Shown one piece after another: positions 5,906 through 6,847 of a stretch of 12,244 nucleotides of DNA. Below the pieces are notes generated by a model. The model was not told where the DNA came from, searched no databases, and saw nothing but the letters and a program-made list of their open reading frames with translations. The stretch's first letter is position 1; each line of letters begins with the position of its first letter. The position numbers and the translations under genes are program-made. The stretch covers positions 1 through 12,244 of the forward strand of contig JABDPH010000400.1 in the NCBI GenBank assembly GCA_013042925.1, written 5' to 3'. This DNA is from Eudoraea sp. (GTDB taxonomy: Bacteria; Bacteroidota; Bacteroidia; Flavobacteriales; Flavobacteriaceae).

Positions 5906-5937
5906 AAAAAAAACAGGAAACCGAAGTCTCCTGTTTT
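5906..5937 (-). terminator. Strong UUCG-loop intrinsic terminator, minus strand
   Basis: Read leftwards, AAAACAGGAGAC (5937-5926), TTCG (5925-5922) and GTTTCCTGTTTT (5921-5910) form a 12-bp hairpin closed by a C(UUCG)G tetraloop, one of the most stable RNA loops. The 3' arm ends in TTTT and runs into four more T (5909-5906). One stem pair is G.U on this strand and would be an A.C mismatch on the plus strand, so the minus strand is the intended one. It would end leftward transcription coming from the repeat array, before the tRNA-Gln region. Confidence 0.82.
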
Positions 5938-5957
5938 CTATGAACTGCTTTGTACTT

Positions 5958-6072
5958 TTATTGCTTACGAACATAATCCTTCATCATCTTATTTCTAAAA
6001 TAATGCCAACATACATTCGGGCAAATGGGGTATTAAACACTTCATTTGACTTATTTCGTCTTGCAACTTCAT
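5958..6072 (-). other. Spacer with two very short open frames, minus strand (uncertain)
   Basis: On the minus strand, ATG at 6072 opens a 25-codon frame (MKLQDEISQ..., stop 5995-5997) with AAGGA nine bases upstream. A second frame starts ATG ATG at 5987 and ends MMKDYVRKQ (stop 5958-5960), 20 bases before the UUCG terminator; that frame is open back to 6032 without an ATG and reads CPNVCWHYF in the added part. Both are too short to call as genes on length alone. The only support is the placement, a short frame ending just before a strong terminator. The stretch might instead be a diverged relative of the 199-bp units or simple spacer. The remaining bases between 5849 and 5905 show nothing recognisable. 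Confidence 0.2.
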
Positions 6073-6093: not shown

Positions 6094-6126
6094 AAAGAAA
6101 CCGAGATACCGAAATATCCCGGTTTC
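6094..6126 (-). terminator. Terminator-like hairpin of repeat unit 1
   Basis: On the minus strand GAAACCGGGATA pairs with TATCTCGGTTTC (12 bp, one G.U) around the loop TTTCGG. Only TTT follows before an A-run, so this copy should terminate weakly and may let transcription run on to the UUCG terminator at 5906-5937. Confidence 0.6.
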
Positions 6127-6275
6127 CAAGAAACTGTCAAATCTTCCCAATGACCGCTTACACTGATCCCTAATAGGAACTATCGCTAGATCCGTTCACA
6201 ATTCAAATAGTTTAATGGGAGCCAATGACGGCTTCAATACTTATGGATTTTCTTATCCCCACGATAAAAACCCCA
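6094..6275 (-). ncRNA. Candidate structured small RNA, repeat unit 1 (last in array)
   Basis: About 182 bases on the minus strand, from a 5' hairpin (GGGG...TTTTTATC, GATAA, G, AAAATCC; 6275 to about 6244) to the 3' hairpin at 6126-6097. In this copy the 5' hairpin keeps the TTATC/GATAA inner stem and the GG/CC outer end but has one internal mismatch. The variable window reads UUGGCUC on the RNA. The T-tract is the shortest of the three copies. No promoter box is seen in front of it, so it probably depends on read-through from units 2 and 3. Confidence 0.5.
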
Positions 6276-6289
6276 ATCTAATAATTTTC

Positions 6290-6325
6290 AAAAAAGAAAC
6301 CGAGATACCGAAATATCCCGGTTTC
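6290..6325 (-). terminator. Intrinsic terminator of repeat unit 2
   Basis: Same 12-bp hairpin as unit 1 (GAAACCGGGATA / TATCTCGGTTTC, loop TTTCGG on the minus strand), followed directly by TTTTTT (6295-6290). This is the best T-tract of the three copies. Confidence 0.7.
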
Positions 6326-6473
6326 CAAGAAACTGTCAATTCTTCCCAATGACCGCTTACACTGATCCCTAATAGGAACTATCGCTAGATCCGTTCGCAA
6401 TTCAAATGGTTTAATGGATGCCCATGACGGCTTCTATACTTACGGATTTTCTTATCCCCACGATAAAAAACCC
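6290..6473 (-). ncRNA. Candidate structured small RNA, repeat unit 2 (middle)
   Basis: About 184 bases on the minus strand. The 5' hairpin is GGGTTTTTTATC (6473-6462), loop GTGGG, then GATAA, a bulged G and AAAATCC: 12 bp with one G.U that would be A.C on the plus strand. Next come the variable window (UGGGCAU), a conserved CCATTTGAATTG segment, the 51-base invariant core with a small ATAG/CTAT hairpin, and the terminator at 6325-6290. There is no open frame of useful length. This copy has the cleanest architecture of the three: structured head, invariant core and intrinsic terminator. I do not recognise a known family. Confidence 0.58.
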
Positions 6474-6489
6474 ATTCTAATAATTTTTT

Positions 6490-6524
6490 AAAAAGAAACC
6501 GAGATACCCAAATACCCCGGTTTC
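6490..6524 (-). terminator. Intrinsic terminator of repeat unit 3
   Basis: On the minus strand GAAACCGGGGTA pairs with TATCTCGGTTTC around TTTGGG, followed by TTTTT (6494-6490). Relative to units 1 and 2, one A-U pair has become G.U, so the 12-bp stem is kept although the sequence changed. On the plus strand the same change breaks the pairing. Confidence 0.68.
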
Positions 6525-6675
6525 TAAGAAACTGTCAATACTTTCCAATGACCGCTTACACTGATCCCTAATAGGAACTATCGCTAGATCCGTTCGCAAT
6601 TCAAATGGTTTAATGGATAACTTTGACGGCTTCTATACTTATGGGTTTTCTAATTCCCCCGATTTAAAAAACCCA
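6490..6675 (-). ncRNA. Candidate structured small RNA, repeat unit 3 (first in array)
   Basis: About 186 bases on the minus strand and first in the direction of transcription. The 5' hairpin pairs TGGGTTTT (6675-6668) with AAAACCCA (6649-6642) perfectly and continues inward with TTAA/TTAG pairs. The sequence inside differs from units 1 and 2, including two extra bases, but a hairpin is retained at the same place. The variable window reads AAGUUAU; the core is identical to the other two copies. A weak -7-like box lies about 42 bases upstream. This is the copy most likely to have its own promoter. Confidence 0.55.
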
Positions 6676-6716
6676 CTTATTTATATTTTTCAAAGAACTT
6701 TTTTAAATATTCCACT

Positions 6717-6757
6717 AAAATATACAGCGTTACTGAGGTATGACATGATCTAGATCA
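6717..6757 (-). promoter_or_regulatory. Possible activator-dependent promoter of the RNA array
   Basis: On the minus strand TATATTTT (6724-6717) is one base from TAnnTTTG, and no -33 box precedes it. A 12-bp perfect palindrome TGATCTAGATCA (6757-6746) is centred about 40 bases before the predicted start. It resembles the FNR half-sites TTGAT-N4-ATCAA at 8 of 10 positions (ATGAT-CTAG-ATCAG). A class II activator site plus a weak promoter would fit, but a 12-bp palindrome is expected by chance a few times in 12 kb. Nothing else recognisable lies in 6694-6847. Confidence 0.28.
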
Positions 6758-6847
6758 GTTTGAGTATTTTTTTTGTTTTTTTAACATTCTGAGTAGTAAT
6801 CCATATTAACTGAAGGCGTGTCCTAATGCTTTGTGCTGGATGAATAA

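Follow-up and report, generated by a model that had tools for sequence, protein, structure and literature searches.

What does a tandem array of three 199-bp units encode when its region holds no convincing open reading frame (ORF), how is it switched on, and what keeps its copies alike? These questions are raised by a stretch of 12,244 nucleotides from Eudoraea sp. of the family Flavobacteriaceae (hereafter the window), in which a preliminary description had recognized such an array, free of ordinary protein genes, and had read it as a set of leftward small-RNA genes, each composed of a 5' hairpin, a core identical over 51 bases and a 3' hairpin. As far as sequence can show, conserved pairing, strand and anatomy support that reading. 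The analysis presented here also adds to it a fourth unit, a CRP/FNR-type box, a boxA-like leader, a stress island and a candidate regulator.

Tandem Repeats Finder reported one tandem array in the whole window (6094-6675, period 199, 92% matches, 0 indels), and an ungapped comparison resolved it into three 199-bp units on the minus strand, in exact 199-base register (6094-6690). In plus-strand order, the first and second units agree at 187 of 199 positions, the first and third at 163, and the second and third at 171, and the longest run common to the three units spans 51 nt (unit positions 54-104), which bears out both the register and the identical core. Read on the minus strand, each unit presents a 5' hairpin, then the core and then a terminator-like hairpin, and the window ORF list contains no convincing ORF in the array region. 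The middle unit folds better than most dinucleotide shuffles on the minus strand (z -2.68; 2 of 200 shuffles as good) and more weakly on the plus strand (z -2.02; 7 of 200), and its terminator is the only one among the three that a simple terminator scan flagged. By DNA comparison, the genome of origin (an assembly of 537 contigs, 76.5% complete) contains three copies, the remaining 11 rows being of 14-25 nt. The putative transcription unit is larger than the extent given earlier, 6097-6693, with promoter elements at about 6715-6761 and a fourth unit at 5906-6049 (Table 1).

Table 1. Features of the array and its upstream region, in window positions
Feature	Position	Strand	Score or basis
CRP/FNR-type box AAACTGATCTAGATCATG, TGAY-N4-RTCA inverted repeat, centre ~6751.5	6744..6761	-	23.2 bits
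-7-like element TATTTTAG	6715..6722	-	similar element at like distance in most array leaders
boxA-like element GTTCTTTGA, 5' end of inferred transcript	6690..6698	-	like rRNA leaders
Unit 1, 5' hairpin with G-rich loop	6641..6675	-	reading of 5' segments
Unit 1, core and terminator, type A	6492..6639 (hairpin ~6495-6524)	-	R1 158.4 bits; sequence in model
Unit 2, core and terminator, type A	6293..6440 (hairpin ~6296-6325)	-	R1 160.6 bits; sequence in model
Unit 3, core and terminator, type A	6094..6241 (hairpin ~6097-6126)	-	R1 153.7 bits; sequence in model
51-nt identical stretch	6147-6197, 6346-6396, 6545-6595	-	ungapped unit comparison
Unit 4, divergent type B, longest U-tract	5906..6049 (hairpin ~5910-5937)	-	R1 36 bits, E 7.4e-7

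Twenty-two homologous units were aligned (alignment A1). Row G009b was then removed, so that alignment A2, the covariance model R1 and the pair count are based on 21 sequences from nine genera, the broken first unit of genome G003 having been left out of the alignment. The core of these type A units is rod-like. It is closed by an outer stem (GAAG.../...CUUC) and capped by an apical hairpin whose loop is UAGCRAUA-like; it also contains short helices that flank conserved internal loops, several positions of which are invariant or nearly so in the alignment. A 14-pair terminator follows the core. Among the 21 sequences, 93.9% of 881 cells are paired, compared with 87.4% in shuffles, and pairing falls to 37-55% when partners are slid by 1-3 columns; because the structure was derived from these same sequences, it has an advantage over its slid versions, and kinship between sequences can also outdo shuffles, so that the count of double changes is the stronger evidence. 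By that count, 24 of 42 pairs carry changes on both sides, against a shuffle mean of 13.4, and none of 500 shuffles reaches 24. The preliminary description had made the small-RNA reading hinge on homologues with conserved pairing, and these results indicate that they exist. A by-eye reading of the 5' segments found one clear hairpin in 20 of the 22 units and GGGG in 15; the exceptions are G391, which forms no hairpin, and G255, whose hairpin differs. Taken as a whole, the sequence comparisons provide good support for assigning the three units to an unnamed family of structured RNAs.

The fourth unit (L015:1313-1456) lies outside model R1, which was run over 53 loci, and its score alone is not conclusive, because the terminator palindrome produces wrong-strand matches of up to about 20-33 bits in the same search. 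Sixteen units of this type B, from the window and related genomes, align and pair, with 88.3% of cells paired compared with 78.4% in shuffles and changes on both sides in 24 of 37 pairs (mean of shuffles 12.8; none of 500 as high), a result that adds weight to type B. Conserved secondary structure with compensatory changes, as in structured bacterial small RNAs, was thus found for both types, which share their shape, a UAGNRAUA-type apical hairpin and the closing stem, but not sequence. Arrays of relatives combine units of types A and B with units of other types; since additional divergent members with boxes of their own stand at L139:9297-9440, L140:15304-15447, near 9435-9581 of L143 and near 9695-9830 of L147, the family has more types than these two. 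Array organization varies as well. In L134 (G266:C12) and L020 (G009), two neighbouring units each have their own boxA-like leader, while the window array has one leader for four units. In genome G003, about 9.2 kb separate the two parts of the first unit (G003:C1:787235-787303 and 796549-796846; L022, L018, L145), with an N run at one end; either something has inserted into the RNA gene or the assembly is faulty here.

The identity of the core had been ascribed earlier to selection or recent concerted amplification. Across species, however, the 5' hairpins cluster by array position: the first units of two genomes are 95% identical in this segment, whereas the first and second units of the window genome are 68% identical, and first and later units within one array 57-70% (G000, G006, G001). 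This clustering places the duplication before the species split. Every comparison among nine units gives 86-98% identity for the cores, which we attribute mainly to selection and perhaps in part to homogenization.

Matches to the array at E 0.01 or better were found in seven of ten genomes of the genus, including that of origin. In a draw from the family Flavobacteriaceae, R1 matched 27 of 397 genomes and 22 of 237 genera (E 0.001; rows near 1e-4 may be chance), and in a draw from the order it matched 5 of 395 genomes (E 1e-4), all five in the same family; both draws used strict filters, by which weak matches are lost. Named carriers with an R1 match include Eudoraea adriatica, Arenibacter, Allomuricauda/Muricauda, Pricia and Zeaxanthinibacter. 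DNA comparison gave matches in 48 of the 397 family genomes, mostly short, terminator-like or due to chance, and of 21 stretches from a collection-wide pattern scan, the five lacking an R1 match at E 1 (L090, L092, L097, L100, L109) are taken as chance rows. Searching the window with cmscan against Rfam 15 returned nothing at gathering score except tRNA, and all 15 sub-threshold matches fall under their cut-offs, so the statement that no named family fits the array holds against Rfam. The 6S-Flavo model (RF01685) matches the genome of origin once, at 110 bits, outside the window (G000:C150:2058-2165), which rejects 6S identity for the array, and no other Rfam family reached its gathering score. 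Among the titles and abstract openings of the openly licensed literature, no description naming the array RNA was found.

Upstream of unit 1 stands the CRP/FNR-type box, scored with a matrix whose training boxes, first chosen with help of the boxA-like pattern, came from 17 leaders of genera other than Eudoraea. Random positions exceed 19 bits once in 8 million, and within the window just one further row exceeds 5 bits, namely this box read on the opposite strand (6.8 bits), so that the inner units have no box. The flavobacterial -7 consensus is TAnnTTTG, and the -7-like element listed in Table 1 would set the transcription start near 6709, with the box centre then near -41.5, a class II position. 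An FNR-type inverted repeat at an activating position, as in FNR-regulated small RNAs, is thus found, the distance of about 42 nt depending on that predicted start. Together with the terminator hairpins, these elements, recognized by sequence, would provide the promoter and terminator signals of a small-RNA gene. The leaders of relatives repeat the arrangement: a box AAACTGAYCTAGGTCATTT comes first, a TANNTTAG-like element next, and after it GTTCTTTGAAAA or GTTCATTGAAAA, which stand 59-66 nt after the TGA of the box. Among the 19 R1-matched loci, the RNA lacks a preceding box only in L151, whose R1 match is weak. The output of the promoter-pattern search includes chance rows inside genes. A sigma-70 scan of the window, not made for Bacteroidota promoters, gave 3 promoter-like sites compared with 3.2 in shuffles. 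The comparison of leaders gives good support to a box shared by the RNA arrays.

The box is not confined to RNA leaders. In 376,601 bases from 20 loci of relatives, the first matrix gave 118 rows of at least 10 bits against a Markov-shuffle mean of 2.8, a count in which the two strands of the palindrome are separate and which includes 26 script-flagged RNA leaders and about 12 more recognized by eye, leaving about 80. Although ORFs cover 321,229 of these bases, 106 of the 118 rows lie outside them, often 35-95 nt before Usp, Hsp20, PPDK/PEP-synthase, DUF302, DUF2267 and Pyridox_ox_2-type genes, some of which were named by eye. A pattern search of four whole genomes found 17 sites compared with 5 for the reversed pattern; among the 17 are the RNA leaders, along with several that fall within ORFs. 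In a joint Pfam scan (not a homology alignment) of 136 ORFs, the eight nearest the middle of each of 17 loci, there were 12 Usp, 8 Pyridox_ox_2, 7 PPDK, 7 receiver-domain, 6 kinase-domain, 5 DUF302, 4 PfkB, 4 PTA, 2 acetate kinase and 3 Crp-type proteins. Usp, Hsp20, PfkB and P-type ATPase, which are kinds of genes on the island, are kinds found in DosR regulons, and we take the island set as a whole to resemble the DosR and Anr regulons. On this resemblance, the island looks like a low-oxygen or dormancy regulon, and the signal would be low oxygen.

The array in the window has no island genes beside it; its neighbours are tRNA-Gln, a TMEM260-like protein, a Na/H exchanger and rimP-nusA. Eudoraea adriatica has otherwise the same neighbours, with PfkB-like and lipoprotein-like ORFs between the array and the Na/H exchanger (L144:10200-12079) that are missing in the window (6762-6847). 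Because the RNA follows a PfkB-like ORF in six of 19 loci, those of E. adriatica and five others, the window may have lost a remnant of the island. Archease-like and RtcB-like ORFs, recognized by eye, recur with the box or near the RNAs in L117 (G001:C4:40702), L134:1-2144, L141:13098-15032 and L146:14334-16836, coming after a methyltransferase in most of these loci; in L117, where the box stands just upstream of such genes, RNA repair may belong to this regulon as well. One island also encodes a release-factor-like protein of the baeRF kind.

One of the RNAs shares its 19-kb stretch with the gene for a protein that fuses receiver, cNMP_binding and HTH_Crp domains, and a near full-length counterpart of this protein was found in all 15 carrier genomes searched (in the genome of origin at C195:3010-4050, 56% identity). 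In a control draw of 120 family genomes, the fusion was present in 54 (E 1e-60), which lowers its weight as a candidate: it occurred in all ten R1-matched genomes, three of them with weak R1 matches, compared with 44 of the 110 others. The candidate regulator thus appears to go with the RNA but is more widely spread; it may bind the box, and other Crp-type paralogues exist in the carriers searched. ORFs of 347-356 aa, which the receiver-CRP fusion matches along almost its entire length, also stand beside or near divergent family RNAs at L139:9549-10619, L150:11607-12674 and L151:9327-10370, and two of them adjoin kinase-like ORFs recognized by eye. The Pfam model of Hfq matched none of the nine carrier genomes searched, one of which is 76.5% complete, so that base pairing by the RNAs, if any, would use another helper, and Hfq-dependent pairing of the FnrS kind was rejected for these carriers.

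The 5' end of the predicted transcript carries an element resembling rRNA leaders, six of seven of which, from five of six genomes, contain GTTCATTGACATATTG or close variants, the seventh being a 96-nt piece at a contig end. Among the sense-strand RNA leaders, 22 by a by-eye count, the exact boxA-like pattern occurs in 14, and the other eight comprise six near variants (e.g. GCTCTTTGATAAA) and two with no visible boxA-like element. The exact pattern was found in none of 118 other box rows (second matrix, threshold 8 bits; the equality with the 118 rows of the first matrix at 10 bits or more is a coincidence). By this contrast, 14 of 22 against 0 of 118, the boxA-like element belongs to the RNA leaders and not to the regulon as such. 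A boxA-like sequence, AAGTTCTTTAACATAA or AAGTTCTTTTACATAA, also lies upstream of 6S-Flavo RNA in Eudoraea genomes (L051, which is the RF01685 match given above, and L052-L055), with the exact script pattern in three of the five loci. As the inner units have no box, units 2, 3 and 4 would need read-through. In excerpts of the literature, boxA is described as the recruiter of NusB-S10 in rRNA operons, and CRISPR arrays are said to use antitermination complexes as well (PMC12691694, PMC10931766). A boxA-like leader on a long untranslated transcript would be common to those systems and the present array, but an array of small RNAs with internal intrinsic terminators is not among the cases that these excerpts describe (PMC12691694, PMC10931766).

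In our judgement, the locus is probably a stress-induced, presumably low-oxygen-induced, multi-copy array of regulatory small RNAs, served by one promoter with read-through of internal terminators. We propose that the single box near -41.5 switches the array on, the likely regulator being the receiver-cNMP_binding-HTH_Crp fusion, probably run by PAS histidine kinases and also controlling the stress island. RNA polymerase would start near 6709 and copy the boxA-like leader, three type A units and one type B unit, each closed by its own intrinsic terminator, and NusB-S10 at boxA would let part of the polymerases pass the inner terminators, so that the products would be monomers and longer, subsequently processed transcripts. 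These RNAs would act without Hfq, through base pairing of variable stretches with putative targets, through contacts of the internal loops and the conserved UAGCRAUA-like apical loop with one shared protein, or through both, and the outcome would be a reset of gene expression when respiration fails.

The last step of this proposal has a rival in which there is no mRNA pairing and the molecule, a protein-binding decoy or a ribosome-associated rod-like RNA, titrates or guides a protein during stress. CsrB/RsmZ and 6S are RNAs that act on proteins, and a conserved core would be expected of an RNA that binds protein no less than of an antisense RNA. That types A and B have kept a common shape, apical hairpin and closing stem without a common sequence points in this direction, as do the nearly invariant internal-loop positions, the suitability of multi-copy arrays for titration, the nine genomes in which Hfq was not found and the release-factor-like protein of one island. 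We nevertheless consider a pure decoy rather unlikely, since the 57-70% identity between the 5' hairpins of first and later units resembles the diversification of a contact region and not the upkeep of simple copies.

The array architecture could also be explained by each unit ending at its own terminator, the first doing the work and the downstream ones, hardly made, being relics or spares. The single box site, the strong hairpin that ends each unit and relatives such as G209 and G168, which have a single strong type A match, agree with such an arrangement. It is difficult to reconcile with cores kept 86-98% identical after an old duplication, with the double-sided changes in type B, which has no box of its own in the window, and with the retained boxA-like leader, and we judge it distinctly improbable. 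A mobile or selfish repeat of the REP or MITE kind, devoid of RNA function, would account for the tandem arrangement, the palindromic ends and the AT-rich intergenic site, and a known mobile repeat had been named from the outset as what would overturn the small-RNA reading. No sign of one was found: the genome of origin has the three copies and no other by DNA comparison, the promoter box and leader keep a near-constant distance, pairs change on both sides, and stress genes surround the RNA in many relatives. Copy number, covarying pairs and context thus largely refute this explanation, to which we give hardly any credence.

Among known systems, NgncR_162/163 sibling RNAs, LhrC and the NsiR1 arrays also place related small-RNA copies close together; they belong to other phyla and are likened here by description, and none of them is known to have a boxA leader. 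FnrS of E. coli is FNR-activated, single copy and Hfq-bound. The present array is like FnrS in being a small-RNA gene under a putative CRP/FNR-family activator, with an FNR-like inverted repeat and probable low-oxygen induction, but it differs in its structured units of about 200 nt arranged in arrays, in the box CTGAY-N4-RTCAT, in the receiver-CRP fusion as candidate regulator and in that no Hfq was found. 6S-Flavo is likewise a structured flavobacterial RNA, although its model matches elsewhere in the genome and not the array. As excerpted, DrrS (MTS1338) is a DosR-regulated small RNA made as a longer precursor and then processed (PMC5360333); the dormancy-type regulator and the processed precursor, proposed for the array, are common to both, whereas the regulator family is another one and the excerpt mentions no tandem array (PMC5360333). 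Rfp18 and other Rfp small RNAs of Flavobacterium psychrophilum are, in the excerpt of their report, structured and expressed in a condition-dependent manner (PMC9723704), and are compared with the array, a structured flavobacterial RNA too, by description and not by sequence.

These observations allow a more speculative idea, which we offer tentatively and regard as doubtful: a new design of non-coding operon in which a two-component CRP switch of a low-oxygen stress regulon would drive a polycistronic array of paralogous structured small RNAs, and in which an rRNA-style boxA leader would set the read-through of the serial terminators and the level of stress would set which and how many RNAs are made (A, A, A, then B), quieting the ribosome or metabolism. 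To our knowledge, there has been little mapping of small RNAs in marine flavobacteria, and riboregulation without Hfq in Bacteroidota is an open question. With the locus present in named species that are in culture, and with a covariance model, a promoter box and candidates for both the regulator and the antitermination leader, a small-RNA branch of a Bacteroidota stress regulon becomes directly testable. If read-through proves true, boxA antitermination would extend to small-RNA arrays.
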